Origin: Cymbomonas tetramitiformis
Taxonomy: Eukaryota; Chlorophyta; Pyramimonadophyceae; Pyramimonadales; Pyramimonadaceae
Direction: 5' to 3'
DNA length: 64,000 bases
Assembly (NCBI GenBank): GCA_001247695.2
Contig: LGRX02025988.1
Span: forward strand, 20,997 to 84,996
Shown here: piece by piece, positions 5,621-64,000 of the stretch
Numbering within the stretch: the stretch's first letter is position 1
Layout of the letters: the number at the start of each line of letters is the position of its first letter
Translations under genes and position numbers: made by a program
The notes under the pieces: generated by a model
Database searches by the model: none
The model's input: only the letters and a program-made list of their open reading frames with translations
What the model was told of the DNA's origin: nothing

Positions 5621-5622
5621 GC

Positions 5623-5723: not shown

Positions 5724-5777
5724 TTGTCATAAAGTGAGATTTTATTTTACTATATATATCAATCTCTAATTATGACA
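5724..5777 (+). repeat. 54-base palindromic element, forward copy, containing the methyltransferase start
   Basis: Arms TTGTCATAAAGTGAGA and TCTCTAATTATGACAC flank the core TTTACTATATATATCAA. The ATG of the methyltransferase at 5772 lies inside the right arm (TTATGACA). The element therefore supplies either the promoter and start region or a flanking repeat of a gene cassette. The core contains a TATATA run. Confidence 0.8.
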
Positions 5778-6416
5778 CCGAAACGTGTCTTACAGCTATT
5801 CTCCGGGACGGCATCGGTCAGCAAAGTACTTAAGGAAATCTATAAAAATTGCGAAATTGTATCGGTGGACATACTGCCCGATCATGATCCAACTCATATT
5901 GTTGACATATTAAGCTGGGATTACACCATATATCCACCAAAGCACTTTGATATGATCTGGGCCAGTCCACCATGCACGGAATATAGTAAGGCCAAGAGAT
6001 ACCAACCACGAAACCTGGAGTTGGCTGATAGCATAGTTGAGAGAACATTGCAAATAATGGACTACTTCAAACCTACATATTGGTGCATTGAGAACCCAGC
6101 AGATGGCGGCTTAACGAGACATAGACCGGTGATGCAACACATGAACAAATACATCCACATATGCTGCTATTATCAATATGGATTTGAGTACAGAAAAGCA
6201 ACTAACATATGGACTAATCGGGATGGATTAGATCTGAAGATGTGTTACAAACACAGCACACCGTGCCCTATGATGAAGTTATATGGGAAGCATATGAAGT
6301 CGGCTCAGTTTGGTCAAAGTTCATGTGCATCCCATGGGACCGGGAGAGGAAAGGTTGAGAATGTGTATAGCATACCTCGTGAGTTGATCATAACTCTTGT
6401 CACTTTTAGAGAATGA
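5772..6416 (+). CDS. Cytosine-C5 DNA methyltransferase, virus-type
   Basis: An intact 214-residue frame. Visible C5-methyltransferase motifs are the S-adenosylmethionine loop LFSGTASV (residues 9-16), an acidic turn VDILP, the catalytic loop WASPPCTEYS (cysteine at about 68), and IENP at about 106-109 in place of the canonical ENV. A YQYG-x-RKAT-x-IWTN block follows. This is the compact single-domain form also seen in phages and algal viruses, which would methylate cytosine in its own or host DNA. Surrounding viral genes are broken but this one is not. The start lies inside one 54-base palindrome and the stop inside an inverted copy. It is clearly related to the C-terminal domain of gypsy element 3 at 57.8-58.4 kb. 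Confidence 0.88.
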   Translation: MTPKRVLQLFSGTASVSKVLKEIYKNCEIVSVDILPDHDPTHIVDILSWDYTIYPPKHFDMIWASPPCTEYSKAKRYQPRNLELADSIVERTLQIMDYFKPTYWCIENPADGGLTRHRPVMQHMNKYIHICCYYQYGFEYRKATNIWTNRDGLDLKMCYKHSTPCPMMKLYGKHMKSAQFGQSSCASHGTGRGKVENVYSIPRELIITLVTFRE

Positions 6417-34418: not shown

Positions 34419-34494
34419 GGTTATCGGCCACCACTTGTGGGTGCTCGTGTTTTACTTTTGATCCTTGGAGGGCGAACCGAACTTCCTCGAATCC

Positions 34495-36184: not shown

Positions 36185-36189
36185 GAGAG

Positions 36190-36649: not shown

Positions 36650-36783
36650 GCAGATGTGGGTTGCTTGAATGCAACCTCGTCAAATGTTGAGTGCACGTTT
36701 AGTAGTGCCGGTAGCCTGCTTGCAGACTTTCATGCCCACAATAATCTAGGCAGTGATTTGTTAGAGGCATACATGACCATTAT
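36650..36783 (+). pseudogene. hAT transposase C-terminal fragment, left part
   Basis: NATSSNVECTFSSAGSLLAD is the hAT dimerisation signature (pattern S-s-x-x-E-x-x-F-S-x-a-G). The frame is cut at 36783 by gypsy element 2 and continues after it at 47351, where about 43 further codons run to a stop. The host of the insertion was therefore a readable transposase gene at that time. Confidence 0.72.
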
Positions 36784-37381: not shown

Positions 37382-37394
37382 GATCTCCCCTCTT
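37382..37394 (-). promoter_or_regulatory. Polypurine tract of gypsy element 2
   Basis: On the minus strand AAGAGGGGAGATC lies immediately before the LTR start TGTCAGGG. It would prime plus-strand DNA synthesis. Gypsy element 3 has AAGAGGGGAGGAG in the same position. Confidence 0.8.
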
Positions 37395-41300: not shown

Positions 41301-42254
41301 CATGGGTACTGGAATGGTACGTACTGGCTGTGATGGTGGCTTATGCCCAGGTTCAATGTTGATTCGATGATAACCACCTTCAAACCGTTCTGGCCTATGA
41401 CCAGCTGGAAGATCCTCCTGGAATATGTCTGAAAAGTCTTCTCTCACTTGATCACGTGCTGCTGTGACCTCGGGGTCTTCCATAGTGGTGTCTGAGTCTG
41501 ATGCTGCAAAGACCAGTTCACCGTCGACCTCTGAGAGAAAGAAGAGATAAGCTACGGCTTCTTCAGCCGAACCACTGGATCGAATGCGACGAAGGTGCTT
41601 CCTCATGGTGGTGGCGCTGACCAATTCCATTTCAGGAAGGTCATCTGAGTCTGGAGTCTGCTCAACTCTGGACAATACTGTGCGAATACTGGAGCCTGAT
41701 GAATGCTTCCTAGTGATCGTCAGATTTTTGGTCTGAAAGTCAATGTGTGGATTCCTCCTCTCCAACCAATCTTGACCCAGAATGACAGTGAATGGTTTCA
41801 TGTCAATGATGTAGAAATCTTCTGTATCCTTATACTTGCCCAGCGAAAATGTAGCCTTGGGAAGATAGGATGTGCATGGTAGTTGGCTTCCTCCAGCCAA
41901 TCCCACTGAAAATGATGAAGAATCTGTGGGAGCTATACCAAGCTGAGCAGCAAACTGTCTGTCGATGAAAGACGATGTGGCTCCTGGATCTACCAAAATG
42001 TGAGTACTCTGTCCATAAACTTTCCCTTTGTACAACAACAGCTTCTTCTGTGATTTCAGCTGTGCTGTTTGAGACTGCATCTGTGCGATGTGCTCTGAGG
42101 GATTGTCCATCTGCTGAAACTGTAATGTCAGACTGGAAAGGACTTCTTCTGAGATACTCTCAACCCGGCCACTTGCTTCAGTGGCATCTTCAGGCTGATC
42201 TACCCTCGGGGTGCTCTCAACACCGGTACCTGTGCAGTACCCTGAGAGTTTCCC
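38333..42254 (-). CDS. Pol polyprotein of gypsy element 2
   Basis: Read from the -1 frameshift site: protease (HILVDPGATSSFID, with D-P-G instead of D-S/T-G), reverse transcriptase (WRMCCDY, FSRFDFNQFFHQI, MPFGLTNAPA, VIFMDDTIVYS), RNase H (MEVDGSGTHVG, HQPLVYF), integrase zinc finger (ECHSATISGHVG ... CPVCQRQ) and catalytic core (SLDWITDLP, ISDRDPRF, ANERSHAF), then a C-terminal chromodomain (ISHILSDKFTRGVKYYLVRY ... DTWVKA). An 84-bp GT-AG intron (39067-39150) sits just after the integrase core; removing it keeps the frame. Near 38650 a 4-base insertion (AAAT) shifts the frame between the integrase tail and the chromodomain, the only visible defect. Confidence 0.9.
39067..39150 (-). other. 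Spliceosomal-type intron in integrase
   Basis: On the minus strand the frame reads to CCTCAG, then GTACTTTTC ... TTCTTCCTCAG, then GTGTTGTTGC. Splicing joins EDILR to CCCND and on to LVEFAINN, the normal integrase continuation. If unspliced, the protein ends nine bases later... about five codons into the intron, at TGA. Confidence 0.75.
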
Positions 42255-43624
42255 TGAGGAGCTGGAGCTGATGGAACTGGATCTGGAGTTGCAACTGCTG
42301 CATTGATGCTGTGCTGACTCTTCAGTTCATTGACCAAGGTGTTGATCGAATTGACGAGTTTGCCAGACCCATCCTTAGCACCCTGATTCTGCTGCTGCTG
42401 TCTCTGATTCGGGAAAGGATTCTGAGCTGGTGGCTTTCCCTTGATCTGTTTTCCATCATCGGTCTTGGTGGCATAACAATCCTTCTCGATGTGACCAGGA
42501 CGACCACAACGATGGCAAGTCTTATTATTATGTGATTTTCCTTTTCCTTTTCCTTTGCCCTTGCCTTTACCACCTTTTCCTTTATTCCGATTCTGATTGG
42601 AGTTCTGGCTGCCACTCTGATTCCAATTCCGATTTCTGTTGGATCTGTCATATGGCTTCTGGCCACGTCCTCTGTCCTTATCCTTCTTGGCTGGACCTCC
42701 AGATGACTGCTCCTTCTGACCCCGATAATGAAGGGTTTCTGATTGCTTTGAGTGAATGACGTAGTTCAAATCAAGCAATACCTGTGTGGTTTCTTGCCAC
42801 GACAGATTGTTCCTCTGCTCTTCTGTCAGATATCTGAGCTGGAACTGTCTGCGGAGATCAGAATCCATACTGGTGACGAATCTGTCCGTTATCAGCACAT
42901 CATTTAAATCAACTGCTGCTAGAGAAGCCAGTGATGTAAATGTGCGCAAATAATCTGCAAAGGTTTGGGTTCCTTGAGTCAGTGCCATAAGGTGTTTCTT
43001 GGCTACTGATCTCTTATGAGGATTACCAAATTGTCTGAGGAATGTCTGTCTGACCATCTCATAAGTGGTATATGGCTGTTTTGCCAAGACCTGAAAATAG
43101 TGTCTATCATTATTCTGTATGAGAGTAAGAAACACTGTGATCAAATCCTTATCATTGACACCTGGATAAGTGAACTGGAAATATCTGTCCACTGTATCCA
43201 ACCAGACCTCTGCGTCCTGTCCTGTTTTGAATTCCCTAGGTGGTGTCATTTTCACCTTGGGAACCAAACTGGGTGGAGCTGGTGGAGCTGGTGCTGGTAC
43301 TGAATCTGCATCTGGATCTACAAAGACCATCGGAGGACTGTCTGCTGTATACTCTGCTTCTGGTGCCTGAGGCTCATTGGCAGGATCCTTGTACCGGCTC
43401 ATATCTGGTTTCATGCGACTGACATTGTCATAATAGCCTATATGGTCATATCTGGTTAGTGTATCGGCATAACCAGCGATCCACTTCGGGATTTTAAACC
43501 GACTGTATGCATCGTATGAACCGAGTATGTCGAAAAACCAAGTCGAATGATCTGGGTTGATATCAGGAATCTCATCGGCTCTTCCTCTTCGATAGTAACC
43601 ATCTAAAAACAAAACACAGCACAA
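42200..43624 (-). CDS. Gag of gypsy element 2
   Basis: A 474-residue frame. Central segments such as WLDTVDRYFQF and FLRQFGNPHKRSVAKKHLMA are typical of the retrotransposon gag capsid domain. A lysine/glycine-rich stretch precedes the zinc knuckle CHRCGRPGHIEKDC (C-x2-C-x4-H-x4-C). The first eight or so codons are doubtful: a splice acceptor TTTTTAG at 43603 suggests the coding exon begins at 43602 with an upstream leader exon supplying the start. Gag forms the particle and binds element RNA. Its stop at 42200 lies 48 bases after a slippery heptamer. Confidence 0.85.
   Translation of the reverse strand: MCCVLFLDGYYRRGRADEIPDINPDHSTWFFDILGSYDAYSRFKIPKWIAGYADTLTRYDHIGYYDNVSRMKPDMSRYKDPANEPQAPEAEYTADSPPMVFVDPDADSVPAPAPPAPPSLVPKVKMTPPREFKTGQDAEVWLDTVDRYFQFTYPGVNDKDLITVFLTLIQNNDRHYFQVLAKQPYTTYEMVRQTFLRQFGNPHKRSVAKKHLMALTQGTQTFADYLRTFTSLASLAAVDLNDVLITDRFVTSMDSDLRRQFQLRYLTEEQRNNLSWQETTQVLLDLNYVIHSKQSETLHYRGQKEQSSGGPAKKDKDRGRGQKPYDRSNRNRNWNQSGSQNSNQNRNKGKGGKGKGKGKGKGKSHNNKTCHRCGRPGHIEKDCYATKTDDGKQIKGKPPAQNPFPNQRQQQQNQGAKDGSGKLVNSINTLVNELKSQHSINAAVATPDPVPSAPAPQGNSQGTAQVPVLRAPRG
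42248..42254 (-). promoter_or_regulatory. -1 ribosomal frameshift slippery site, gag-pol
   Basis: On the minus strand the gag frame reads CAG GGA AAC, which gives the heptamer G-GGA-AAC, a canonical X-XXY-YYZ site. The -1 frame is open from here through the gag stop and into protease and reverse transcriptase. A downstream RNA structure has not been checked. Confidence 0.7.
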
Positions 43625-46600
43625 AAAATACCTTCAGCTAATTGCCTAACTGAGTGTGTGTGATTTATATGTTATATGTGGTATATCGGTATGTTTACAT
43701 ACATGTAGTATATTCATAAATAATAATGAGGTAAGTATATATACATATCCACCTTCTTCCCCCCTCAAGAGAGTGTGTGATATAGTGGCAGTTGTCAATT
43801 GCCAATACCTCAAAATAGCATGCATTCCATATAGGAAGCATCTGTCACAGTTCTTGGGTTGTTGCCCGATACATAATCATGTTTGTGTCGAAAACAGCAT
43901 GATATGTTAATGCTAAATACGAAGTTTATCGAAATTATAGTAGCATTTTAGGGCATGTAATGTTACAGTGGCCCATACACCCAATAGTATGATTAGGGTG
44001 TTACATGGTATCAGTAACCCTAAAATAGGTAAAAAATAAGCAGTATAATTTTTTTGCAAAGGTTTTAAAGCAAAACTGCATTTAATACCTAAATAAATGT
44101 AAGGTGGTTTTCAGAGGGTACGTTACACCCCTGACACACACATTTAATTTTAGGGGTGTTACAGGGTGTTACAAGTGCTGTATAAATCAGGGAATATTCA
44201 GATATAGCTGAATAATCAGATCAGCAAAAAAAATCCACACACATTTTTCATTTTGAAATCATGCGTGGAGGATTTTTACGTATTTTGTTACAGTCAACAT
44301 GTATACCCCTATATATTACACACCTAATATCTAGGGTGTTACACGAGATATGACCATGGTCATTATGTTTTTCTGATACCTTAATAGGTATAGAATCATA
44401 ATTTAAAATAAAATGGGCACACATTTTTCATTTTGAAATCATGCGTGGAGCATTTTTACCCATTTTACAGCTTTTTCGGCTATCTGATATATTGCCTCGG
44501 TGACATATCTCAGTGTATATGTGGAATGTAAAGTACAGAATCACTGCAATAAACTTCACTTTGGCACATGATAAATTTCATGGCAAATAAGTGAATTGTG
44601 CTGTATATCAACATCTATGGTTGATAGCATTTCTGGGTTTTACTGATTTAAACCCATAGCAGTAAATGTACATTCTGGTGATATATAAGTTATCAACTTA
44701 AGTGGGAACATCCAATTAGGAACATCCACTTTAGTGATATTTGTCAATCTATGATCTGTTCTGAGCATAGGTCTGTGCTCTAAGATTTATCAAAATGATA
44801 TTTCTTATTTAGAACATATCTGGACATTGCTTGATACAATCACAGCAATTTAACACAACACATTTGTATGTGTGTGTTGTCCTTAACAACTATTATCAGA
44901 TGTCATGTAGATACTGATCTGAGAGTTGCATGCATTTGAACTGATCAGATCTGAATCAACTGTCAATATGCAACGTAGTTGTTGTTATTGCTCCAGCGAT
45001 GATATGTGGAATGACGAGTGGACTGCACCCAACAGTTACCAGCTGTTTCATGGGTGCAGTATCTTGCCTTCGGGTCTGGAGATAACTCCATCCAGCCCTA
45101 CAGCATCTTGTCTTATCCTGCTCCCTTATCTATCGCAATCACTGACATTTTCCACGCACATGTGTTTGGAAAATGGTATGTACATTATCATACACATAGT
45201 AGATATTTAAGTTAATCAATTCACTTTGAATCAGTGAATGTTAATACATACAATGCAGTGTGTGTGTATGCATGCAGTGCTTACTGATTAGCACTTTTGT
45301 CAGTGTGTGTGTGTGTGTGTGTTAACTTTTACACACTTTACAGTAGGATATGTTCTGGATATTACAATATCCTAGACAATTTATCATGTAAGATAGTCAG
45401 CATACCATGCACTGAATACATCTAACATGATATATCAAGTTTAGGGATTATTGTAATTCCATAATAATCTCATTACAAAATGAGTTGCTGGGTATTTTTC
45501 ACATACAGCTCCGGTGAGTATCCTTTCAGTAATCCACAGTAGAACAATATGTTGTCCGAGGAGTATCTCGACTCCACCGGGTCATATTGAGCTAATTACT
45601 ATGTTAAGATTACTGAACAGGCACCTTATACTGTATGGGTTCTAATATAGTTTAGCATGCACTGCAATGTGCTTATGCAATGTTCATGTATCACAGCATG
45701 ATGCTAATATACCAGTTGCTAACGTGATCAAACTGATATATATACACTACAGCTGGTATCGTGATCAAGCTGTATTATTAATGCATGCACAATTCACAAT
45801 GTTGCAATCACTCAGCATAAAATGTATACATGGTATAATAATGCATGTACTGCATGTTGGTGATTGCTGCAAGTGATGTGTGTGCATGTGTGCATGTGTG
45901 TATGTGTATGTGTTGATCCACTCACATATATTGTGCACACATTATTATATTTCTGATGAGCATGAATGCTGATGATTAAGAACATTTGTGCAGTTGATCT
46001 TAGCAACATCTCGACATCATCATCATCGCAAATTGTAATCTTTCATAGCACGCTGCAAATAACTTATGCAAAAGAGCGTGCTGCTGATGAAAAGCATGTA
46101 TTGTCGTCGCCATTAATCAGTGCATTATACGAGCGCTAACATGAATACGGATCAAAATTCCGTCGATGACCACTATGCCATATATCATTCTGAACAATTT
46201 TCGAGCGTGATTCATACAAGCGCGCGCATGTAATTGGCATGCATGCTGTAAGCTGCGATCCACTTCTGCAAAAATATGCGACCATCGCGCATGCTGCCAA
46301 CTGCAGATTAGTATATCGCGCATCAACATGTATGAAGCCGTACAAAAAGCAATTTGGTGAAATCACGAAAATTTGTAATGCTGCGCTGATGACTTTCCGC
46401 GCGGAAACGATTCCGCTGATGATTATGCTTCCACGTCGCATCTGCGAACATGTATACATTTGCGAACCATTTATGCGAATACGTCTCATTGCTGCGCAGA
46501 TGTATGCCATTTGCACACCTTATCGTGTAGTGTGTGCGATCAGCTGTTTCTGCGAGTGCGCTTCTGTGAACGCGAAAATTTTCTCGCACGTTATCTTCGC

Positions 46601-46746
46601 TATTGCAGCAGATATATCAATATTCAATTTATGCGAGTGCGTCGCCTTATGTGCTCCGCAACCTGTCAACACAAATTAATGATATCTATGCGCTGCACAC
46701 AATTGGGTTCTCGTTCGTGCCTTGACGAGCTTTTAGAATACCATTA
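43625..46746. other. Long leader of gypsy element 2
   Basis: About 3.1 kb without a supported gene between 5' LTR and gag. Contents: repeated GGTGTTACA motifs at 43990-44345, a direct repeat of about 42 bases spaced by 180 (44238 and 44418, core CATTTTTCATTTTGAAATCA), and TG-rich microsatellites at 45300-45322 and 45878-45915. A GC-richer part at 46130-46680 has overlapping frames in both strands that look like chance. Confidence 0.6.
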
Positions 46747-47345
46747 TGTTAGGGCTGAAGTGCGAGCCCACAAATATTATACAATATATCAATTAAACAC
46801 TGTGCTGTTGAACGGCACACACAAGTGTAACAATCAAGCGGGTTGTGAGTTGCAGTCTCTGGATCAAGAACTGCTGAAGCACAACGCTTCCTCACTTTGT
46901 ACCATACGTCTCCCATCATCTTAGATGGTACCGCCATTGGTTTGTGAACCCGAGACGTAGGTTGAACGACCAGTATTGTAATAACGACTAGTTCGTTCAT
47001 ACTGTGCATGCGTGTTCCGCACATGCTTAAAGCAAGATGGTTATTGTTTGTATTCAAGATGTATCTTTGCTTTGCCATCTTCGAGTTCGACGTACGAACT
47101 CTCGATGACAGGGATGCCAGATGATGTGAAATTATCATCTGGCGACATGTACAGTCATCGTCGACCGTACTGACGACTGTCATAATAATATATGACGCGA
47201 CTCGACATGTACAGTCATGGTCGACCGTACTGACGACTGTCATAATAATATATGACACGACATGACATGACATGGTATGACATGTCTGACAGGTATGACA
47301 CGTATGACATGTATGACACATATGTCATCGGTCATGACCCTGACA
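46747..47345 (-). repeat. 5' LTR of gypsy element 2
   Basis: About 599 bp, partner of 36784-37381. On the minus strand it is followed by TAATGGTATTCTAAAAGCTC, whose TGGTAT may be the primer-binding site. Confidence 0.92.
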
Positions 47346-52257: not shown

Positions 52258-53459
52258 GCGAAACCCCCTCGGATGCTGCTTCCCCCGATGCTGCGGTTGC
52301 GTCTGCTGTCCCCCGCCCGCACCCCTACGTTTCTAGACGGGTCCAATACACGTGTTGAACACGTATTGGAGGCATATTGGAGGCATATTAATAATAATAA
52401 AACATTTACGCTAGCAAAGGGGACAAAGTCCTGAGAGTGCGGTAACCCTGCAAAGCAGGCTAGTGAAAACACCAGGGGCTACTCCCTCTGCTATAGCGCG
52501 CCCACAAAGGGGCTCAGCCCACTTTTCAGCAGGGTGACATCTAGAGAAAAAGCTAAGTGCTAGGCAATAAAAAACTCTAGAAGATGGAGAAGCAGCCATG
52601 GCCGGGTGAGTGGAGGGGTGGCTGAATCTGAGCGGTGGGGAGGGAAGTCGAAGAATTAAGGGGGTTTTGGAGACGTTGAGGAAGGGGGTCGTGGTGGGCG
52701 GGGGGAGAGGGGGGTGGCGGGGGAGGGGAGGGGGGGGACGGCCCCTCCCCTTGGGGACACGGAACCATCTTATATTGCAAATTTTTGAGAATTATTGCAG
52801 GAGGGTTTGAAGAAAGTCGTTTGACTGTTGCACAGCTTCTGTTTCTGTCATGGCTTCACTGCTCGAGATGTCAACTGTATGCGGGTCAGTGTTTAAGGTG
52901 GTGGTGGTGTTTAACAGAAACACGTCTCGCCTATTTTTGGTGTGTTGCCTACAAATTCTTGAAAGTTTTTTAAGGAGAGGTTTAATCTTGCCACGGGGAA
53001 CACCTATCGTGTTGAGGACAGTACCAAAAAGAGGAGGGAGGTCTCCCATGAGTGTAAGAACTTTGGGCCATTTCACGGTGCTTATAGACACAAAAATTCC
53101 AGACGTTTCTTGATAGTTTTTTGTCGTTTGGAACCTGGTCCCGAGACCTGGGTCCTCATAGATCGCTACATTTTAAATTGGGATGGCCAACCGGCACGGC
53201 AGAGCAAAATTAGACAAATTTGAGCCCATCAGACTACATAGAAGGAAACGGGAGCCCAGACGGATAGTTTTCTATTTTTTTATATTCTTTGAAGGAAAAA
53301 AATAGTCTCCAATACTGGGACCTGGCCAATTAGTCTGGATTGCTCCGGGATGGCCGCCAAGAAATTAGCCAAACTGCCGATCAACACTCAATTTTTGAAA
53401 TTTGGCCACCAAAAACTGCATTGCACTCTGGAAAGCATATTTCTTTGTTCACCACGACT
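52258..53459. other. No gene seen; G-rich tract
   Basis: At about 52690-52745 the plus strand has many runs of three or more G (for example GGGGGGAGAGGGGGGTGGCG), which could form G-quadruplexes. A minus-strand frame at 52792-53091 is open but unrecognised. No promoter or RNA gene identified. Confidence 0.45.
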
Positions 53460-53464
53460 TCCAC

Positions 53465-54463
53465 TGCTACGTTTTGTAAGAATATTCCTGGACGATTGTA
53501 TCCTCTTCAGCAACACCTTGGAGGAGCATCTTTCCCATCTCCAGCAATTTCTCGAAGTCTGTGAGAACCAGGGTATCTACCTCAAAGAGTCTAAGTGTCA
53601 ACTATTGCAGACCCAGATACGCTTTCTGGGGCACGTGATCTCACGGGAAGGAAGTCAACCTCAACATGACAAGCTGGCCGCCATCAGGGACTGGCCCGCT
53701 CTGGAAAACGCCACGCATGTGCGCCAATTTTTGGGGTTGGCTGGGTACTACCGGCGGTACATGCTGGGCTTCTCTGAAGTAGCACAACCTTTGACTCAGC
53801 TCACCAAAGGGGATGTCGCTTGGCTATGGGGACCCATGCAGCGTTGGGCCTTCGAGGAGATTAAGAAGGCGCTATGTTCTTCACCCACTCTGGCGCTACC
53901 CGATATGAAAGCGGCGGCCGAAGGACGGCATCCTTTCGTGGTACAAACTGACGCCAGTGGAGTGGCACTAGGGGGAGTACTGATGCAAGACGTAGGAAAT
54001 GGATTGCAACCTATCGCCTTTGAGAGCAGACAGTTTAATGGAGCCGAGCAGAACTACCATGCTGGCGAAAGAGAACTCTGCGCTCTCCATCACTGCACTA
54101 CGCAAACTTGGCGACACTACCTCATCTGGACCGAGTTCCAATTGCAGGGTGACCACAAGCCCCTAGTCTGGTTAATGGCACCCGGACAACCTCTCAGCCG
54201 ACGCCAAGCCCGATGGTACATGGATCTAGTGGAGGTAGGGGTACCCGAGATGGAGTACATCCCTGGGGCGCTACTCTGGGTTCCCGACGCTCTGTCCAGG
54301 CGACCCGACTACAAGGAAATTTCCGCGAGAGAAGGACTGGTAGAAGCTGGCTTTGTGCATCCGGTTACTGGGAAACCGCAGCGACCTCCCTCGGCCGCAG
54401 ATACTGCCAGCAAGTTTCGACCTGCAGCTGGTAAAGAGTCTCGCCAAGGACGCGCGCCCCTGG
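53465..54463 (+). pseudogene. Reverse transcriptase C-terminal part and RNase H of gypsy element 3
   Basis: Begins at FVRIFLDDCILFS (the catalytic Y/F-x-D-D box), then IRFLGHVISREG, HVRQFLGLAGYYRRYM and RNase H motifs VQTDASGVALGGVLMQD, ERELCALHHC and GDHKPLVWL. The upstream palm and fingers are absent. The frame is interrupted by a MITE at 54464; across the MITE and its CTGG duplication it continues in phase at 55137. Confidence 0.85.
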
Positions 54464-55132
54464 TGTCTATTGGGCGCACCTTACGGTGGGTTAACCCACC
54501 GTAAGAGGTTTTCGGAAACCGCATGCTGGTGCTAGTATATTGTGACAACTTGGCAAACCCATGCTTTTTTACACACCTTAGGGGTTATATTAGTGCATCG
54601 ACTTGCAAAAAATACGAGACATATCGTATAGGTGTGTCTTATATACGCCCTAGTACCAAGGGGTCAAGCAGAAAAATGCCCCAAATTCTTACGGTGGGTT
54701 AACCCATTTTTTCATCTATGGGTAGATTTTAAGAACGCAGATCGCATCTGGAACATGCATATTAGAATTTTTCTATCATCTGTGACACCTAGGGAACCTC
54801 TCGTAGATGGGGTTCAGTTATCATCTGATTATAGACGGAATTCTGAGGCGGTTTACACGAGGGGGTATGGCTTGAAAAATGCACTGAATATGTATTTTTC
54901 AGGGTGTTTCGTTGTTTTCGCTTGCGGTGGCGAGTTTTTTCTACCCTGTCGGCGATCTAGCGGTATATTTTCCATTTCACATGGTGGATATGAGTCTAAA
55001 GGCAATGTGTGTCACGTGTATGACCCGATATAATGCTTCAGAATGATAATAAATAGCTAAGACCTTAGGGTATGGTTAACCCACCGTAACGCCTCGTTAC
55101 GGTGGGTTACCCCACCGTATCCCCAATAGACA
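54464..55132. mobile_element. 669-bp MITE with palindromic ends, copy 2
   Basis: Terminal inverted repeats begin TGTCTATTGGG. CTGG is duplicated at 54460-54463 and 55133-55136. Palindromes TACGGTGGGTTAACCCACCG lie just inside both ends, two on the right. Same architecture and length class as 9442-10106, and both show 4-bp duplications. Excision in silico restores the host reading frame. Confidence 0.88.
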
Positions 55133-55136
55133 CTGG

Positions 55137-55950
55137 GAGTGGTAGATCCCAACAAGTTGAAGGAGCGCAAGTCCAACAGCGCCAAGACCAAAGATCCTGA
55201 ACCAGTCCTCGCGTACAGTGGGACTCTCACCTGGATGGACTCCCCTCAACTCTGGATGGACGCCTTACATACCCTGCAGCTGGCCGAAACTGGGTACGAG
55301 AAAGCAACCCTGGCAGTTCAGACGCGCTCTGGCAAACTGACAGCATCCTCGCCCCCTTCTCCCAGGAAGACCCCTGTTGATTACTCAGCAACGCCGAAGT
55401 GCAGCGAGGCCTCAACCAGACTCCTGGAGCCCAGCGATCGACAGGACTGGAAGTTCCGTGCGGACATGTTCGACTTCTTGAGTCAAGAATATGGACCTTT
55501 CGAGGTGGACGCCTGTTGCGACTTGGGAGGAAAGAATCGTCAGGTCAACCGCTACTGGACGGACTGCTTGAAGGAAAACTGGCGAGGGTTGAACGTCTGG
55601 TGCAATCCTCCCTTCTCCTCCAACCATTTGACCATCGAGGCCGTACTGAGGAAATATGTGGAAGAATGGCGTCTGGACCCTGAGAATACTTCAGCTCTCT
55701 TCGTCCTTCCTGACTTTCAGTCTCGCATGCCACAGTGGCGGCAGTTGTTCAGATCTGCGGGAATGAGAGTGGAGTACATTATTCCTACTACCCATGACGC
55801 TCAAGGAGAACCTGTGCAGATGTTCGCCGCCCCGGATGGAGCCCTTCTGGATCTTCCTTGGCCCCTGCTAGTGGTGTACGCCCCGCCAGCTCGACAGCGT
55901 GTCAAGCGGGAAAGGAAACGAGTTCCCCCCCTCCTATCGTGCGTACTGGA
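55137..55950 (+). CDS. Adenine-methyltransferase-like (Dam/PF05869-type) domain of gypsy element 3 pol
   Basis: Downstream of the RNase H linker (MDALHTLQLAETGY) a domain of about 150 residues spans roughly 55440-55890. Visible features: FLSQEYGPFEVDACCDLGG (the start pattern of phage N6-adenine methyltransferases), then NRYWTDCLKENW, and LNVWCNPPFSSNHL containing an N-P-P-F catalytic motif, followed by LFVLPDF and a second pair of strands. N-P-P-Y/F is the signature of amino-methyltransferases. DIRS-type retroelements are known to carry Dam-like domains; one between RNase H and integrase of a gypsy element is unusual. The frame passes to the integrase phase between 55.92 and 55.96 kb. Activity is not established. 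Confidence 0.65.
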
Positions 55951-57227
55951 GAAGCGGCCAGCGTTCGAGACCTGCATCAGCAGATATCAGGAGGCCAGTT
56001 CCTCAAAGCGCTGCAAGCGGAATATGGGCGACCTGGTCCCCTTCAGACTTTAAGGAAGGAAATCCAAGAAGCTCCGCATCAACGCACTCGTGACTTCTGC
56101 GTAGTGGGAGATGTGTTGTGGAGGGTGAGCGCTGGGCGCTATCAGTTGGTACTGGGAGAAGATTCACCCCTCCGTGAGGTAGTGCTGCAAGAGGCGCATG
56201 CATCTGTTTCAGCTGGACACGCGGGCAGGGACAAAACTCTGGAACGAGTACTGCGACGCTTCTGGTGGAAAGGGGCAGCAGAAGATGTGGGACGCTGGGT
56301 TTCATCTTGCACTATCTGTCAAGCGGTGCGACCGAGAAATTCCTACCCGGATGGATTGCTGAACCCACACACTATTCCTACGCGACTATGGCAAGTGGTC
56401 AGTGTGGACTTTGTCACTGGACTGCCAGTCACGGCGCGGAATCACGATGCCTTTGCTACTTTCACATGTAAGCTCAGCAAAATGGTTCACATCATCCCGT
56501 TGAACTTCCAGGACAGCTCCGCTGAGGTTATCGCTCGAATCTACTTCGACCACATCTGGAAACTACATGGCACCCCTATGAAGATTGTCTCTGACCGCGA
56601 CCCTCGTTTTCAGGATGCTATGTGGAAGGAATTGATGAGACTTATGGGAACTAAAGTGGCCTCCACCACGCCTTACAACCCTCGTTCGGACGGACAAGCT
56701 GAACATACCAACCGCGTGGTAGAAGACATGCTAAGGTCCTTCGTAGGCAGCAATCCAGAGGACTGGGATTTGTGGTGTGCCAACGTAGAGTTCGCCATAA
56801 ACGATACGCGGAGCGATGTAACCGGCTTTACCCCGTTTGAGTTGGTCTTGGGGCACTCGCCTATGTCGCAACTGGACTTGTTCCTGCAAGCGGCTGCTGG
56901 ACAACACTCCAAGCGTAAGGGTGGAGAAGGTACGGCACACGAGATGGCTAGTAAATTCGCGGCTCAACTAGAGGACGCCCGCACTAAGCTAGAACTGGCA
57001 CAGCAACGCCAGCGACATCAGTTTGACCAGCGTCACACCGCCAAATCCTTTCAGTTGGGAGACTTGGTCTGGGTAGATGCCAAGCATCTCACGGAAAATA
57101 TCATGAACCGCGAATCCTTCAGGAAGCTGGGACCTCGCTGGCACGGGCCCTTACCCATCACCGAGAGGTTCTTCAGTGACCAGCAGCGAGAGCTACCCGA
57201 AATTGACAGAGGTGCTCCGGTGGCTTA
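55950..57227 (+). CDS. Integrase of gypsy element 3
   Basis: Inserts element DNA into the genome. N-terminal zinc-binding H-H-C-C pattern: HASVSAGHAG ... CTICQAVRP. Catalytic core with VSVDFVTGLP (first Asp), IVSDRDPRF (second Asp) and GQAEHTNRVVEDML (Glu), followed by VEFAINDTRSDVTGFTPFEL and the C-terminal LGDLVWVDAKHL. The catalytic triad is complete. At about 57227 the frame shifts; the next frame continues with RLKLPPKWRIHDVF, the usual integrase-to-chromodomain linker. Confidence 0.85.
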
Positions 57228-57353
57228 CGGCTCAAGTTACCCCCTAAATGGCGTATCCACGATGTTTTTGCGCAGCATCGCCTCAAGGAATACCGCACTG
57301 CGGATGAAGCCTTTGCGCTGCGTCGACAAATACCTACTCCTGCTAAGGTTCTC

Positions 57354-58436
57354 GTGGATGGACAATCCCAGACCCATGTGTCTAAGATTCTGGCTCGAAG
57401 AGTGAAACCTATGAAAGGAGGCAAGGAAGTAGAAGAATTTCTGGTTCGCTGGACTGGGTACTCTAATGCTCATGACTCCTGGAAGACCCGTGAGTCGTTG
57501 AACTACGGGGGTGAACTCGAACAGCTCACGGAGTTCGAACAACTGAGACTATCACGAGAAGGACAAGCCCGGGAAAAAGCCTTACAGGAGGTCAGAATGC
57601 AGCGGAAGCAAAGGCGGGAACGCGCCAGAGCTCTAACTTTCCTGGATACTTCTGATGAAGGGAAACTCACTTCTCTGGACAACTGCCTACCTTGGGAACA
57701 ATACTGTCGCTCCTCTGACGCCTTTGTGACGCATCTAGCTCTTCTGGACTCTGTGGTCTCGACACGCGAGTTGCGACTACTAGTACTTTTCAGTGGTACA
57801 GGAAGTGTGGAGAGAAGTTTCATGTCATGTTATCCGAAGAGCACTGTGGTCACCGTCGATCATGATCCTCGCTGGCAACCTACCTACGCTGAGAAGGTTC
57901 AGGACTGGGACTTCAAGCGTTACGCGCCTGGTTACTTTGACGTCATCTGGGCTAGTCCACCGTGCACCGAATACAGTCAGGCTAAGACCACTGGGGTGCG
58001 ACAACTGCGACAGGCTGATGCCTGTGTACGCCGAACGCTCCAAATTTTTGACTTTCTCAAACCCCAGCATTGGTTTATGGAAAATCCGATGGGCAGGTTT
58101 CCCTTTGCGCTGCGATTTCGACCCGTAGTTCGCCGGTTACCTACCCCGTTGTATTGCTCTTACTGTATGTATGGTACTGGCTATCGCAAGCCTACTTGCA
58201 TCTGGACGCAGTCGCCTCCTCCAGTGGATCTACGGTACTGCACGATGGATACTCCTTGTCTTCACCAACGGACTCTGGGATCACATCCGGAAACTGCTCA
58301 ACTGGGACCTCATCCAGGGCAACAAGGAGCGGGAGTTTCCACTGCTGTATACCCTCTGCCCGCTGGATTGCTTCGTCAACTCTTCGAGCACCTGTTCGAT
58401 CAGAAAAGCATATCACGCATCCATACGCATGGCTGA
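57354..58436 (+). CDS. Chromodomain fused to a cytosine-C5 DNA methyltransferase, C-terminus of gypsy element 3 pol
   Basis: Intact 360-residue frame, preceded in phase by the end of the integrase linker. Residues about 7-60 are a chromodomain (VSKILARRV, EEFLVRWTGYSNAHDSW), which in chromoviruses guides integration by binding histone marks. A charged linker follows. Residues about 140-350 are a C5 methyltransferase: LVLFSGTGSVE (SAM loop), VVTVDHDP, WASPPCTEYSQAK (catalytic Cys about 204), FMENPMGRF, CMYGTGYRKPTCIWTQ. It ends 66 bases before the purine tract, so it is the true C-terminal domain of pol and not a neighbouring gene. It shares many residues with the virus-type enzyme at 5772. 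Retrotransposon-borne cytosine methyltransferases have been reported in dinoflagellates and a charophyte alga. Confidence 0.88.
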   Translation: MDGQSQTHVSKILARRVKPMKGGKEVEEFLVRWTGYSNAHDSWKTRESLNYGGELEQLTEFEQLRLSREGQAREKALQEVRMQRKQRRERARALTFLDTSDEGKLTSLDNCLPWEQYCRSSDAFVTHLALLDSVVSTRELRLLVLFSGTGSVERSFMSCYPKSTVVTVDHDPRWQPTYAEKVQDWDFKRYAPGYFDVIWASPPCTEYSQAKTTGVRQLRQADACVRRTLQIFDFLKPQHWFMENPMGRFPFALRFRPVVRRLPTPLYCSYCMYGTGYRKPTCIWTQSPPPVDLRYCTMDTPCLHQRTLGSHPETAQLGPHPGQQGAGVSTAVYPLPAGLLRQLFEHLFDQKSISRIHTHG

Positions 58437-58502
58437 TCTGTGTCTGGATCTTAGCTGCTGTACAAATGACTCTGAGTTATCATCTCTTTGTACTAACAAG
58501 CT

Positions 58503-58516
58503 AAGAGGGGAGGAGT
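58503..58516 (+). promoter_or_regulatory. Polypurine tract of gypsy element 3
   Basis: AAGAGGGGAGGAG directly followed by T and TGTGCCAGGG, the likely LTR start at 58517. Same form and position as the tract of gypsy element 2. Confidence 0.7.
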
Positions 58517-58568
58517 TGTGCCAGGGAACAATAGCCCGGCCAAGCCATTCGATTGGCATATTGTATTT

Positions 58569-59570
58569 ATGCATACTGGGGCAGTGAGATGGCAATGGGC
58601 TCGGAAGGGGACTCCCGAGCCATTGACTTCGTACTATGGGGAGCGAAAGCCTGGACTTGATTATAGCTGGCAGCATATTATCGTACACCCTTCTGGTGCG
58701 CTACGCCGCTGGGAGCGTAATAGGGGCGGCGGCTGGTTTCTAGAAGACGCCACTCAGTTGAAGGCGCCGGTAGCGCCATTCTCATTACCGATCAGCCGCG
58801 TTGGGATCGCGTACTGGAATCCGACGATTGTGATTGACGACGACGAATATCATGGAATTCCCTACCAGGGGCGTAAGCCTACACACTCAGCGTCTACGAA
58901 CAGTGAAGATTCGGGTACAGGCGCTGTGTCCTGGAGTAAGGAGAAGTTACCAGATTCTGATGACAATGATGACGCAGGTGTCACTAACAGTAAGGAGAAA
59001 CTACCAGGTTCGGATGACAAAGATGACGCGGGTGTCATATATGGCATGGACACTGCCAGTCCGAAATGGGAGCCAACTTCGCCTGAATATGATGACACCG
59101 AGGATGACGTCAGCGAGTTCGATGACTTGGTAGCTGACGATGATGCTGAAGAACAAGCTGAAGCTCGAAGGTTGAAGAGACTGGGACTGCAATTGATCAT
59201 GGATGAGAAGGGTGAACTTCACTGGGTACCAAAGGGCACCTCCCCGACCTCACCTGTTCAGCCCGATGATCAGCCTATTACCGAGCAGAAGTCTGAGGCC
59301 ATATCTGAGGATGCCCCAGCCTCTGTGGTGGAAACTGTTCATGTACCACCAAAGAAACCATATGGGTCGGATACTGGATTGACTTCAATGGTTGAGAATA
59401 AGGCTGGGGTGTCTGAAGAGACGAAGAGGCAATCTAGGAAATATCCGAGATGTTGGACACATGAGTATATCACTCATTTGAAATGCACCATGAGCAGTGA
59501 CAGTGATGAAGAAGAAGTGCTGGACGTGGCTCCTCGTAGGAAGAAGGCAAAGATCAGCAAGGGACAATGA
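58569..59570 (+). CDS. Acidic protein encoded within the putative 3' LTR of gypsy element 3
   Basis: A frame of 333 residues from the ATG at 58569; it stays open upstream to 58518. N-terminal part has repeated aromatic segments (FMHTGAVRWQW, IIVHPSGALRRWERN), possibly two copies of a short beta unit. The middle has two near-repeats of KEKLPxSDDxDDAGV and is very acidic. The C-terminus is basic (APRRKKAKISKG), a likely nuclear localisation signal. It starts just after the purine tract, so it lies inside what should be the LTR. Not recognised. It could be an accessory gene of the element or an unrelated gene placed there. Confidence 0.5.
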   Translation: MHTGAVRWQWARKGTPEPLTSYYGERKPGLDYSWQHIIVHPSGALRRWERNRGGGWFLEDATQLKAPVAPFSLPISRVGIAYWNPTIVIDDDEYHGIPYQGRKPTHSASTNSEDSGTGAVSWSKEKLPDSDDNDDAGVTNSKEKLPGSDDKDDAGVIYGMDTASPKWEPTSPEYDDTEDDVSEFDDLVADDDAEEQAEARRLKRLGLQLIMDEKGELHWVPKGTSPTSPVQPDDQPITEQKSEAISEDAPASVVETVHVPPKKPYGSDTGLTSMVENKAGVSEETKRQSRKYPRCWTHEYITHLKCTMSSDSDEEEVLDVAPRRKKAKISKGQ

Positions 59571-59833
59571 AATCAACTGTCTTGATTAGGATTGTCCAAA
59601 TGCAGATTCTCTGATTAGGATTTGTATAGGTGGCTGATGATGATATGCCAGCCGACATGGGACAGATCGATTAGAGATATGAATTGCGCGCCTTGAAAGT
59701 ATAAGACATGAATATTGCCCATTTGGAGGCTGTTCTAACTTGAAGTAACTATTTGGAGGAGCTGTTGCTCAACCTGTTAATTTACTGGTCAATCTTTCCT
59801 GCCATAAAGATATTGCAATTGCTTGAATTGTAG
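59571..59833. other. Boundary between gypsy element 3 and the LINE
   Basis: No gene. Somewhere here the gypsy 3' LTR should end with CA; the exact point is not visible without a second LTR. Confidence 0.4.
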
Positions 59834-62800
59834 CCTTGTTCACACAAAGTGGTCAAACAGCACTGGAAACGAGCCAAGCAAAGGCACAATGACAAAACGG
59901 TAAAAGAATACTGGAACAACCAAAAAAGATACCACAAAAGGATATATGCCAAAGCGCAAGAAACAGGCCATGCCCCCACGGCGAACATACAGGCCCTGCA
60001 GGACAGGGAGGGCAACCTCTCTGTAGGCCACGGGAACATTGCAAACGCGCTAGCAGACCACATGGCTCACTCAGCGCCATACAAGATGGAGCACCGTAGT
60101 CTGCCCGACCCGAAACCCCCGCCATGGGAAGACCCAGCTCATAGAGAACGCCTCATAAAAGCACCAAGACCAGACCCCACGGGACTGGACCTCACAATAA
60201 GTAGACAGGGCTACAGCAAGGCGGTGCACACCTTAAACAACAACAAAGCACCAGGCCCCACCAGGACCCCGAACGAAATTCTCAAGTACATGCCAGAGGA
60301 CTTCCACGACGCCCTACACGCGCTCATGCTGGAAATGTGGAACAGCAAACACGTCCCCCTCACCTGGAAAAAAGGGACATTCTGCTTCCACCACAAGAAA
60401 GGGGACGTCACCTTACAGCAAAACTACCGACCCATAGCCCTACTTGAGGGGGTATTCAAGCTGTACACCTCGCAGATAGCAAACATGCTCTCCACGTTCT
60501 GCGAAACGCAAGGAATACTAGCCCAGGCGCAGGAAGGCTCAAGGGAAAAAAGGAACACACTCCGACAACTCACCAGAGTAACCAATGCGATAGAGGATGC
60601 AAACGTCTCGGGACGAGAACTGCATGGCCTGTATGTAGATTTCGAAAATGCGTATGGCTCAGTGGACCACAACAAACTACTGCACACGATGCAATACCTC
60701 GGAATACCCGACGAACTCACGCAGGTGGTGCGAGATGTCCTGGGTACACAAAGCCACGACACCATGTCAATGAACACCAGGGTAGGAGGGGAAACCTCTC
60801 ACAAAACGGTGCAGGTGCAAAGAGGACTCCTCCAAGGAGACAGCATGAGCCCCCTCCTTTTCATAATATACCAGGAACCGTTGTTAAGGTGGCTAGAGGT
60901 GGGGGAGCATGGATACCAGCACAAATACGCAGCGGAACAGGAAAGACTGGGCCCCCTCAGGACAGCAGCAGGGGCGTTCGTCGATGACCTGCTCATACAA
61001 TGCCCCACGATTTTCCACATGCGAGCTCAACTGCACAAACTGCAGGCATTCTCACAATGGAGTGAACTCAAAATTAACCTTACCAAGTCAGCCATAACCG
61101 GCATAAAAAATGGGGTTTCCATACCCGAGCAACTCCATAAAGACCTCAAAATGGTGGGGGTGGACGGTAAGCTAAGCCACTTCAAGATACTCAAACCAGA
61201 CGACACATACAAATACCTGGGAGTACTACTGGCATTCACAGGCAGGTGGGACAAGGAGAAAGAAGCTGCTAGGGAAGAGATGAACCACAGAATACAAGCA
61301 CTACTGCGCTCCCCACTAACGCCGGACCAAAAAGAATACTCCCTTCACTCTGCAATACTGGGGAAGTTCGGGTATGGACTGCACCTAGGGCTCTACACAG
61401 CGGGCGAAATAGACGACTTCAACAAAATAATAGGTGGGGCCACAAAGAACATACAAGGCCTGCCCCGCAACGGAACGCCAAACATTTTCACCACGCAGGA
61501 AAAGGAAAGGTTCGGCTTGGGCATGGTGCCACTCCAGGCAGTCTACGCCCAGTCGATTTGGAGCGGACTACTGGAGGCCATGCACAGTGAAGAGGACAGA
61601 GGAGCAGTACGGGGCCCGGCGTGGAGGCAAATAAACCTAAAGTCAAGGCTCAGAATGTCCCACGTCAGCAGGTCCACCAGAGGGCTGGTAGAATACCACT
61701 GCACCGCACGCATGAATTGCGCAGACCTCGACAAACTCTGGGGAGGGCACCAGACAAAACACAACACACTAAGAAAACTCAATGCCCTACTCAGATACAA
61801 CATTACGCCCCAGGGGACGGAGGGGATGCTCAGACAGCTCCAAACCCCGGCACCAAAGATAATGGAGCAGCTGAAAGGGGCGACCAGAAGAAAGTCTGAC
61901 AAAGAGATGGAAGGAACAACAAGGAAAACGAAAGCAGGCAAAATAATTGATGGGGACCTACCGGCACCTCCAGACTGGCAGGCGATGTGCACAGACCAAA
62001 CCGCCAGGCTCACAGTACCCAAGGACACGCCAACTTCGATAAATTTCACAACGTGCCTCAAACTATTCACACACTTCCCAGACCTAGCGTTCCTTACTAC
62101 CCGGGATGGCCAACATGCGATTAGCCAGGTAAACGTCAGGGAACAATGCACAGATGCAGCCCTCAAAGCAGACCGCAGTGCCATAGCAAAAGGCCTGGCA
62201 CACCTGTACCCATACCTATGCGAAGCCCAGCCTAGAGACATTGCGAAGCCGGGGGACTTTTATGATAGCAGCACAAACCGGCGGCTGAAGCAACAATACA
62301 GGAGTATACCCTGTGAGGGACCGCTGGACCCCCACACAATGCGAACCAACCTCCCGCGCCTCAACCCGGAACAGCTACGGGCTAAAATGACGGACTGGGA
62401 GGCGAGGCTGGTCCCCAGAGAAGAGATTCACAGGCAACTCTCCCTGCACCCGCTTACAAGGATTAACGAGACGGAGACTACCGGTCCAGTACAGGGGGAG
62501 GAGGATGAGGCACCACAAGACCTCCACACGCGCCCGCAAACTAAATGGATAGACGAAATAGACCCTATGGCCGAAAAAATGGAGACAGGCTGCTTCGAGA
62601 AAGGCCAAACAATAGACAAGCCGAAGGAAATTGTAGCAGTAAGGACCCTACTCATTGACCCGACGGACCCCCACTCCCTAGTAACGCAATACAGAACCCA
62701 GTGGAGGCACTCGGAAGGAGATGACTCCTACTCATGGAGTACAAGGGAAACCATAACTGACTACCTAAAACTAGCTAAGCGGAGGGGCCAAAGCGCAACC

Positions 62801-64000
62801 ACCTTCCCGAGCCTAAAAAGAAGGCTGCAAGCAAGAGGCACTCAGGTAACCCACCCCACAGGCCTCAGAAAAATATTGGCTGGAAGGCCGCACCTGGGGC
62901 AGGCCTGGCCCACGCTACATGCAGGAAACCTTTCCCTGGACCCGACAGAAACCAACCCAGAGCAAGACATTGCGGACAACAGGGAACACCACTGCCAATT
63001 ACGGCTGGAGGGGGAGCTCGCCCACAGCTACCACAGAAACGGGAAATACATAGGCACCCTCACTAAAGAAAAGCTTCTCAGGCTACACGAGAGATACACC
63101 CAGGCAGTGGGTACCACACGCCACCAAACCCCGCACCAACGCGCACTGCGCATGGAAATGTGGGAGGACCATAAGATACAGGTCTCCACGTTTGAGGAGG
63201 AAATAGGGCACCTCCTCATTAGGTACTCAAGCAAAGAAGAAAAAGAGGAACGAAAAAAGAACCTACAGAACCACTGGACATTCCCTGCCCAGATGCAAAG
63301 GGCACTACAACAGGCGTTCGGAATTACCACCGAACTATTTGCCTCACCCCTCCTCAATGTTCACCACAACACCACGAAATACTACGCCAAGTACGACAGA
63401 GACAAGGTGTTTGGGGCCAGGGGCTCAGCCTGGACGACAAACTGGATGAAATTGGGGGCCTACCAGTTCAACCCAGAATACACGCCACAGGACCTCAAAA
63501 AGGCGCTGGACTTTGCCATTGCGGCCACCACCACGCAAGACCCTGTGTTCGGAGTCGGAGTATACCCGACATATGAGAAGACCCCATACAGGAAACTATA
63601 CAACACACACGCAGGGCACTTAGTCCATGAACTGTTTGAAATACCACAAGACAAATTCACATTCCTGCCCCCTGACCACTGGATGGGTGCTACTCACCAG
63701 CAAGCGAAACAGTGCAACTGGAACCTCAGGGTACTGATTGTCGCCAACAAAGCAGGGTGGCAGGCCCACTGCATGGACCCAGATGCCGCTGCGGACTGCA
63801 TAAGAAACGCGCTCACAACTTGCCCGCAGAGTAAGGTCCGCACAACCACGGCCGTCGGACAGCCAAGGAGGGAGGCGAACCTGCACGACAGGAACGAACC
63901 AAACCTAGAAGGACGCACCCTCAGTGTGGACTGTGTGGTAGACACAAGACCATGGCAGCGATACGAACTCCCGGAGGTCAAGACAAAGGACATGACAAAT
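59834..64000 (+). CDS. LINE-type retrotransposon ORF2, 5'-truncated, open to window end
   Basis: One uninterrupted frame of 1389 codons with a stop just upstream (TAG 59831-59833) and none before the window ends. It begins between endonuclease and reverse transcriptase, as expected for a 5'-truncated LINE. Reverse transcriptase motifs: NNNKAPGPTRTPNEILK, NYRPIALLEGVFKLY, LYVDFENAYGSVDH, GLLQGDSMSPLLF, and the catalytic AFVDDLLIQ near 60975-61000. After the thumb a segment at about 62620-62770 (VRTLLIDPTDPH ... YRTQWRHSEGDDSYSW) resembles a chromodomain. Around 63330-63770 a further domain begins TTELFASPLLN, with YQFNPEY and VFGVGVYPTY, resembling Dam-like methyltransferase domains but with N-P-E-Y in place of N-P-P-Y. 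The codon choice is A-rich on this strand, typical of LINEs. The last two domain calls are inference. Confidence 0.8.

Follow-up and report, generated by a model that had tools for sequence, protein, structure and literature searches.

Retroelements with a C5-cytosine methyltransferase have been described in several classes. The closest case is KnitGypsy-Dnmt3 of Klebsormidium nitens, which, like the element reported here from Cymbomonas tetramitiformis, is a gypsy element with a C5 methyltransferase inside Pol that evolves under purifying selection; however, its C5 domain is described as Dnmt3-related and its repeats as DIRS-like, and the published description, as far as available, mentions no adenine-type domain, whereas the Cymbomonas element combines a compact virus-type C5 domain with a Dam-type domain (PMC5890265). 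SymbioDIRS-Dnmt3 and SymbioLINE-Dnmt are likewise retroelements with a C5 methyltransferase, but they belong to other element classes and are described with a single methyltransferase type each; two SymbioDIRS enzymes methylate CG in yeast (PMC5890265). A Dam-type domain (PF05869) is found in DIRS elements right behind RT and RNase H, the place it also takes in the Cymbomonas element, yet DIRS elements are described with a tyrosine recombinase and without DDE integrase or protease, while here the Dam domain is followed by a gypsy integrase, a chromodomain and a C5 domain (PMC3783388).

High-copy Cymbomonas repeats with a chromodomain, RNase H and a cytosine methyltransferase, on scaffolds with >10,000x coverage, received one sentence in 2015 (PMC5741210). 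They are very likely the same element families, although that account, in the part available, mentions neither a Dam domain nor how the element is built or what it does. Among the top-ranked results in open-licence papers we found no element with both methyltransferase types, and the original prediction that such an arrangement is undescribed holds for this literature, the 2015 mention of the C5 domain apart.

A decayed copy with both domains

The window, i.e. the whole 64,000-nucleotide stretch of Cymbomonas tetramitiformis DNA that was analysed, includes a Ty3/gypsy chromodomain element at 53085-59842, and this copy is dead. Its 5' LTR and the part from gag to early RT are missing, it carries a 669-bp insertion, and it has three frames where one is expected. 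The features are as follows.

53085..53471, + strand: leader remnant, 93.6-98.7% match in 7 of 10 compared copies; other copies have this region downstream of their 5' LTR
53472..54463, + strand: end of RT and RNase H, in frame 53293-54501 (Pfam RVT_1, RT_RNaseH, RT_RNaseH_2)
54464..55132, no strand: foreign insertion, not part of the element; inverted ends GTGTCTATTGGG, internal palindrome, 4-base overlap at the joint
55130..56050, + strand: frame of the Dam-type N6-adenine methyltransferase, domain at ~55400-55912 (PF05869 3e-10; family profile 250.7 bits; model pLDDT 85.7)
55798..57402, + strand: integrase frame, H2C2 zinc domain at ~56164-56337 and DDE core at ~56392-56682 (PF17921 2.2e-19; rve 7.9e-6, below cut-off)
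57207..58433, + strand: chromodomain (~57375-57509) and C5-cytosine methyltransferase (~57774-58409) in one frame (PF00385 1.5e-7; PF00145 3e-5)
58503..58515, + strand: polypurine tract 5' of the 3' LTR, by direct reading; same tract in another copy
58517..59842, + strand: 3' LTR (TG...CA), present at both ends of other copies
5733..6413, + strand: stand-alone C5 methyltransferase gene outside the element, 41% identity to the element's domain (profile 263.2 bits)

The shortened RT is joined to the piece of 5' leader at 53471|53472, and similarity to other copies starts at 53472, or further on in two of them. The insertion separates RNase H from Dam and is missing in all 10 compared copies. Dam, integrase and chromodomain-C5 each occupy a separate, overlapping frame. 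The predicted fusion of chromodomain and C5 methyltransferase in one frame was borne out (family profile 290.8 bits; model pLDDT 86.9), and both methyltransferase types proposed originally are present, with PF05869 at 40.5 bits (E 3e-10, cut-off 28.1) and PF00145 at 24.1 bits (E 3e-5, cut-off 22). Amongst the other Pfam matches of the window frames are RT_RNaseH (1.9e-28), Integrase_H2C2 (2.2e-19), Chromo (1.5e-7) and rve, the last at 26.5 bits and under its cut-off of 32.6; a PHROGs search agrees with Pfam (phrog_111 1.9e-12; phrog_757 7.4e-16). The element had been thought to end at 58516, but its real end lies beyond this, with the 3' LTR. A 357-codon frame after C5 (58497-59567), without Pfam match, was considered as an extra internal gene and rejected on its position, mostly inside this LTR.

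Intact copies and the order of Pol domains

Other copies in the same assembly are 15.3 kb long; their TG...CA LTRs measure 1.32 kb and their target duplications 5 bp. The LTR pairs of five copies are 99.2-100% identical and target duplications (CATAT, GTCAG, ATGTA) were seen in the three copies with both outer ends visible, which together show that transposition was recent. Two direct LTRs, as expected of Ty3/gypsy, are found in these five copies, but not in the window copy, which has lost the one at its 5' end. Judged from such copies, the element is a numerous, recently active Cymbomonas family, probably with thousands of young copies.

The Pol order is shown to be protease - RT - RNase H - Dam - integrase - SH3 - chromodomain - C5 methyltransferase, and one frame of 2,516 codons runs through the full set of Pol domains (PR-RT-RNaseH-Dam-integrase-chromodomain-C5). 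Both the Dam (PF05869) and C5 domains are complete in a single open frame in 11 of the 16 other copies examined. A second subfamily, with ~51% identity in both domains, keeps the same domain order. The expectation that both types share one gypsy Pol is therefore upheld by other copies and by the second subfamily, although not by the window copy with its three frames; copies in the same genome also carry both domains between matching LTRs, as had been anticipated.

Intact frames show the order protease - RT - RNase H - integrase with an H2C2 DDE integrase (rve core at 25.1 bits, under the cut-off of 32.6) and a chromodomain on its C-terminal side (PF00385 29.0 and 31.7 bits, cut-off 25.1). With this H2C2/rve integrase in Pol, and with direct LTRs, the element falls outside DIRS. 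The same frames match PF05869 at 36.8 and 34.3 bits (cut-off 28.1) and PF00145 at 21.8 and 19.4 bits, slightly below the cut-off of 22. We also looked for copies lacking one of the two domains, which would have spoken against the arrangement, and the outcome favoured it. The region reaching from the tail of Dam to the end of C5 is full length at 99-100% in 36 of 40 scored places, the window included; these 40 were the top-ranking ones among 4,101 loose candidates, so that the sample is biased towards complete copies.

Relationships and conservation of the two methyltransferases

The match of the Dam domain to PF05869 is limited to the first half of the profile, and an NPPF/NPPY motif is present in most rows of its alignment. 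Amongst the structural matches listed, the predicted fold is closest to adenine-N6 enzymes, and the closest solved structure is an RNA-cap enzyme. In a tree, the domain clusters with Dam domains of other retroelements, where the label 'DIRS-like' is taken from domain order; it is a domain that other retroelements share. Searching PDB sequences with the Dam frame or the Dam alignment returned no credible match, and in a scan of viral contigs the frame found two distant loci and the alignment none. Homology to the PCIF1 domain of a neighbouring LINE was considered and rejected (hhalign probability 0.35 on the percent scale, E 0.17).

The C5 domain contains PPC and ENP motifs and matches DNMT folds at E about 1e-8. 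Among solved folds, DNMT3A/B match it best, but a viral protein matches far better still, and the FastTree tree is without Dnmt3 rows. The best viral structural match is Tetraselmis virus 1 A0A2P0VN45, which is similarly compact (~218 aa, 35% identity, target-normalised TM-score 0.88), although it is a stand-alone giant-virus gene whereas the Cymbomonas domain is part of Pol. We class the C5 domain as a compact enzyme of virus type, probably acquired from a virus-type gene. For the gypsy and DIRS cases in the literature eukaryotic (Dnmt3-type) domains have been proposed, whereas this one looks viral in origin. The stand-alone C5 gene in the window adjoins a virus-like primase/helicase-like gene (PriCT_2/ResIII). 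Scans of viral contigs with the chromodomain-C5 frame, the stand-alone C5 gene, the helicase frame and a 973-aa frame found no relative, and a scan with aligned C5 relatives picked up five distant loci. The FastTree domain tree was built after removal of 34 of 123 rows with domain coverage below 80% (two phage rows included) and of one more for its length; its branch supports are moderate (0.64-0.95) along the path to the retroelement group.

Both domains are better conserved than the linkers, and the alignment columns around SPPC, ENP and NPPF are some of the best conserved. Comparison of the two subfamilies gives a pS of 0.85 for Dam and 0.93 for C5, with pN of 0.34 and 0.38, respectively; inside subfamily A, dN/dS of C5 is 0.09-0.31. 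On these substitution patterns, purifying selection is shown to maintain both methyltransferase domains in two subfamilies.

Possible roles of the two enzymes

The most likely reading, to which we give an even chance, is that the window holds a decayed copy of a two-methyltransferase element whose enzymes mark its own DNA at two stages and so shield the copy. The adenine enzyme, beside RT and RNase H, would mark new cDNA, and the cytosine enzyme, on the integrase tail behind the chromodomain, would mark the copy or the chromatin at its landing place; a marked copy may thereby be protected from nucleases or sensing, or may resemble quiet host DNA. The roles put forward originally, self-marking, chromatin targeting and evasion, are likewise hypothetical. 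CpG o/e ranges from 0.70 to 0.84 by part of the window copy and is 0.79 and 0.83 for the two subfamilies in pol; for comparison, it is 0.86 in the whole window and 0.54-0.64 in methyltransferase-free retroelements. There is thus no clear decay of the kind that CpG self-methylation might leave, and CpG decay was rejected as a sign of self-methylation.

A methyltransferase-free gypsy element thrives in the same window, which counts against the self-marking explanation, as do the RNA-cap substrate of the solved structure closest to the Dam domain among the matches listed and the PF00145 scores slightly below cut-off in intact frames.

It is unlikely that the Dam-type domain acts on RNA (genomic RNA or cap) and leaves the marking of DNA to the C5 domain alone. 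The nearest solved structure among the matches listed does work on RNA caps; however, a fold in common is no proof of function, by sequence the domain falls in PF05869, a family whose named representatives are DNA adenine methyltransferases from phages and DIRS elements, and profile comparison showed no similarity between it and the PCIF1 domain carried by the neighbouring LINE. Similarly improbable is a main target in other DNA, with the enzymes marking the host genome or guarding both host and element against restriction by the many giant viruses and polinton-like viruses of algae, and a host benefit partly keeping the element. Endogenous viruses fill the host genome (PMC10675990), an anti-viral role has been proposed for retroelement methylases (PMC6338049) and the C5 domain is of virus type, but the location of both domains inside Pol suggests that they work in the particle or the integration complex of the element itself.

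We give an equally small chance to the view that the domains persist because Pol uses them for DNA binding or folding, catalysis being no longer needed. For the nearest published gypsy C5 domain, methylation was undetectable in yeast, a result its authors call inconclusive (PMC5890265); the conservation around SPPC, ENP and NPPF and the purifying selection on both domains speak against this explanation. That a single copy was fused by chance or misassembled, as the insertion, deletion and broken frames in the window might suggest, is refuted almost beyond doubt since genome copies carry both domains: the region from Dam tail to C5 recurs full length at 99-100% in 35 other places (best of 4,101 candidates), single frames exist in two subfamilies, and independent, overlapping gene models and metagenome proteins cover the domain joints.

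Within the self-marking reading, a more specific and more tentative proposal is a two-mark kit, in which an adenine enzyme coupled to RT/RNase H would act on nascent cDNA and a virus-derived cytosine enzyme, steered by the chromodomain, on the copy or landing site. Plant chromomethylases also combine a chromodomain and a C5 methyltransferase in one protein, with the chromodomain inside the enzyme and reading H3K9me2; in Cymbomonas the chromodomain precedes a virus-type C5 domain on the integrase, a likeness in plan that does not imply descent.

What appears to be new here, judged by the literature cited above, is that a single polyprotein, encoded by many young copies, combines two chemically different methyltransferase domains. 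Retroelements that carry a single methyltransferase have been described before, and the question of why such enzymes are kept becomes testable in a family with two of distinct chemistry. If the two-mark proposal is true, the element would possess a self-made chromomethylase and could influence how 6mA and 5mC are distributed across the entire host genome.

Methyltransferase domains in the window copy

The decayed Ty3/gypsy chromodomain element in the window carries both methyltransferase types, as the original prediction had it: the Dam domain (PF05869, predicted N6-adenine methyltransferase) scores 40.5 bits against a Pfam curated cut-off of 28.1, the C5 domain (DNA_methylase, PF00145, predicted cytosine methyltransferase) scores 24.1 bits against 22, and PHROGs agrees with both assignments. 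On searching the family profiles of both domains against the six window frames at E-values up to 10, the sole extra match was a stand-alone C5 gene at 5733-6413. The features discussed here are as follows.

1-9000: virus-like block with a 973-aa frame at 1259-4177 (-), the stand-alone C5 methyltransferase at 5733-6413 (+) and a PriCT_2/ResIII frame at 8133-8819 (-)
About 18195-23500 (+): broken-up relative of the element that retains protease, fragments of RT and RNase H (69% identity to the element) and breaks off in the linker preceding Dam
36784-47345 (-): apparently complete gypsy element lacking both Dam and C5, with gag, pol, ~0.6-kb LTRs that share 99% identity, and a weak match to the chromodomain
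53085-59842 (+): element copy, comprising leader remnant, RT end with RNase H, 669-bp foreign insertion, Dam frame, integrase frame, chromodomain/C5 frame, polypurine tract and 1,326-bp LTR
54464-55132: the foreign insertion, MITE-like, bounded by inverted ends GTGTCTATTGGG and containing a palindrome around TACGGTGGGTTAACCCACCGTA
59834-64000 (+), running off the window: LINE-type frame with reverse transcriptase and PCIF1_WW (PF12237, 2.1e-15)

The window copy has a truncated RT and lacks gag, protease and 5' LTR. It could not yield the full protein, since its Dam, integrase and chromodomain-C5 parts are spread over three overlapping frames. The insertion is missing from all 10 other copies extracted, with a 4-base overlap at the joint. 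An open frame of ~350 codons within the LTR (58497-59567, +), also present at both ends of another copy, gave no match in a Pfam search. Tandem repeats occur at the broken-up relative (19918-20350 and 23060-23485), and a viral-contig search for three genes of the virus-like block found no relative. PCIF1_WW is the family of a cap adenosine methyltransferase; judged by title and abstract start, none of the literature matches listed describes PCIF1 in a retrotransposon.

Young copies with a single pol frame

The assembly (851.7 Mb, 25,745 contigs; the window is C17102:20997-84996) was searched with a 2.7 kb query extending from the tail of Dam to the end of C5, and the best 40 of 4,101 loose candidates were scored, a sample biased toward complete copies. 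Full-query matches of 99-100% identity were obtained at 36 of these 40 places, window included; among the other four, one match extends to base 2,657 of 2,737, another is split in two, and the last two end at 2,106 and 1,944. Stretches around 10 copies were extracted for LTR and frame comparison, and five of them hold two LTRs, whose aligned parts differ at 0/1,324, 1/1,323, 1/1,030, 2/1,278 and 6/1,283 positions, the last pair also having four gaps and two of the 5' LTRs being cut by the stretch end. Such near-identical pairs show that the element transposed recently. 5-bp target duplications (CATAT, GTCAG, ATGTA) flank all three copies with both outer ends visible, which measure 15,296, 15,274 and, in a shorter form, 8,254 bp. 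On another contig (C17991, stretches L038/L039), a frame matching nearly all of the C5 profile (positions 1-200 of 208) follows shortly after the 3' LTR of an element copy, outside the element.

Frames were compared in 16 copies, namely the 10 extracted and the places L014-L017, L019 and L020 (L018 coincides with one of the ten). In 11 of them, one frame contains Dam and C5 in full; the remaining five have a frame break in Dam (2) or C5 (3). One copy has a pol frame of 2,516 codons, along which Pfam finds aspartic protease, RVT_1, RNase H, Dam (36.8 bits), H2C2, rve (25.1 bits, under its cut-off), SH3, Chromo and DNA_methylase (21.8 bits, slightly under the cut-off of 22). With all Pol domains in this one frame, the pieces in the window belong to a real single polyprotein, and the earlier claim of both domains in one gypsy pol holds for the protease-to-C5 arrangement. 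A 1,239-codon frame upstream, in a different phase, is presumably gag; 1,164 of its codons were scanned and gave no Pfam match.

Second subfamily, selection and wider relatives

Using P0150, a protein match spanning Dam tail, integrase and chromodomain, as query (C5 lying outside it), 68 of 14,521 loose candidates were scored; identities were 91-100%, 67 of the 68 were free of stops within the match, and in several the surrounding open frame is at least 2,750 codons. In the one stretch analysed from this second subfamily, a single frame carries Dam and C5, in the order found in the first; Dam scores 34.3 bits and DNA_methylase 19.4 bits, below cut-off, while an in-house C5 profile gives 298 bits. 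Identity between the subfamilies is 76% for RNase H, 67% for integrase, 51% for both Dam and C5, 45% for the chromodomain (over 42 aligned residues) and 36% for the RNase H-Dam linker; the chromodomain-C5 linker gave no match above threshold. With pS near saturation (0.85 Dam, 0.93 C5), pN is 0.34 for Dam and 0.38 for C5 versus 0.50 for the RNase H-Dam linker. In four pairs compared within the first subfamily, C5 differs by 2-11 synonymous and 2-4 non-synonymous changes (dN/dS 0.09-0.31) and Dam by 1-4 and 0-1; the chromodomain-C5 linker has ratios of 0.67-1.36 (three pairs with a computable ratio). These figures rest on few changes in pairs that are not independent. The low pN relative to pS and the low C5 dN/dS show, at the level of sequence comparison, selection maintaining both predicted methyltransferase domains.

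Close protein matches come from gene models of Cymbomonas tetramitiformis: CYMTET_37851, for example, is 97% identical over 76% of the Dam frame, and CYMTET_6747 and CYMTET_6748, both assigned to a 55,430-base contig, hold chromodomain-C5 (C5 partial) and Dam. A set of metagenome proteins and separate gene models spans the joints: RNase H-Dam (P0140, P0141, P0144), Dam-integrase (P0120, P0121, P0139), Dam tail-integrase-chromodomain (P0057, P0028, P0150) and integrase-chromodomain-C5 (P0001, P0002, P0005, P0009). The environmental matches from ENA and JGI indicate that relatives occur in nature. In two metagenome proteins Dam stands ahead of a copia-type RT (P0163) or a weak RVT_1 match (P0165), which suggests that the domain passes between different classes of retroelement.

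Possible roles and published systems

Catalysis and target are inferred, and we consider it an evenly balanced question whether both domains target DNA of the element itself or the site where it lands. Dam directly follows RNase H, as in fungal DIRS with their RT-RH-Dam order (PMC3783388), and would thus act near RT/RNase H, where nascent cDNA or template RNA is the nearest substrate. We regard an RNA role of Dam as improbable. C5 sits behind the chromodomain, at the end of the integrase, and should therefore accompany the integration complex, unless the protease cleaves it off.

Architecture, recent transposition and selection are established by these comparisons, and the original interpretation is supported in part. 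In pol, the two subfamilies have CpG o/e values of 0.79 and 0.83; the LINE (0.60), the methyltransferase-free gypsy (0.64) and one flank (0.52) lie lower, the window overall (0.86) and its stretch 24000-36700 (0.89) higher. This pattern counts against CpG self-methylation; young copies may be too recent for CpG decay. That the enzymes act mainly against other DNA appears unlikely, and a non-catalytic role of the domains is similarly doubtful. The gypsy at 36784-47345, which lacks both domains, shows the methyltransferase kit to be optional.

C5 enzymes have been described by De Mendoza et al. 2018 (PMC5890265) in a gypsy of Klebsormidium as well as in SymbioLINE and SymbioDIRS; the authors cite Dam domains in DIRS, and their main text does not mention Cymbomonas. 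Other papers report three very-high-coverage Cymbomonas scaffolds with chromodomain, RNase H domain and cytosine methyltransferase (first genome paper, PMC5741210); gypsy elements with chromodomains, together with numerous viral insertions (long-read genome, PMC10675990, whose main text lacks the word 'methyltransferase'); gypsy and DIRS elements, also from green algae, that bear Dam or C5, with no both-in-one element mentioned in the text covered (PMC6338049); and, as another accessory-domain case, an RNA demethylase domain in a gypsy element of an orchid (PMC9289625). Among the leading matches in the open-licence literature, no single element with both types came up. Methyltransferase-bearing retrotransposons are known, and two types in one element is the new aspect, as far as that literature was searched. 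The element is notable for this double kit, its likely copy number, the youth of its copies and a virus-type C5 domain.
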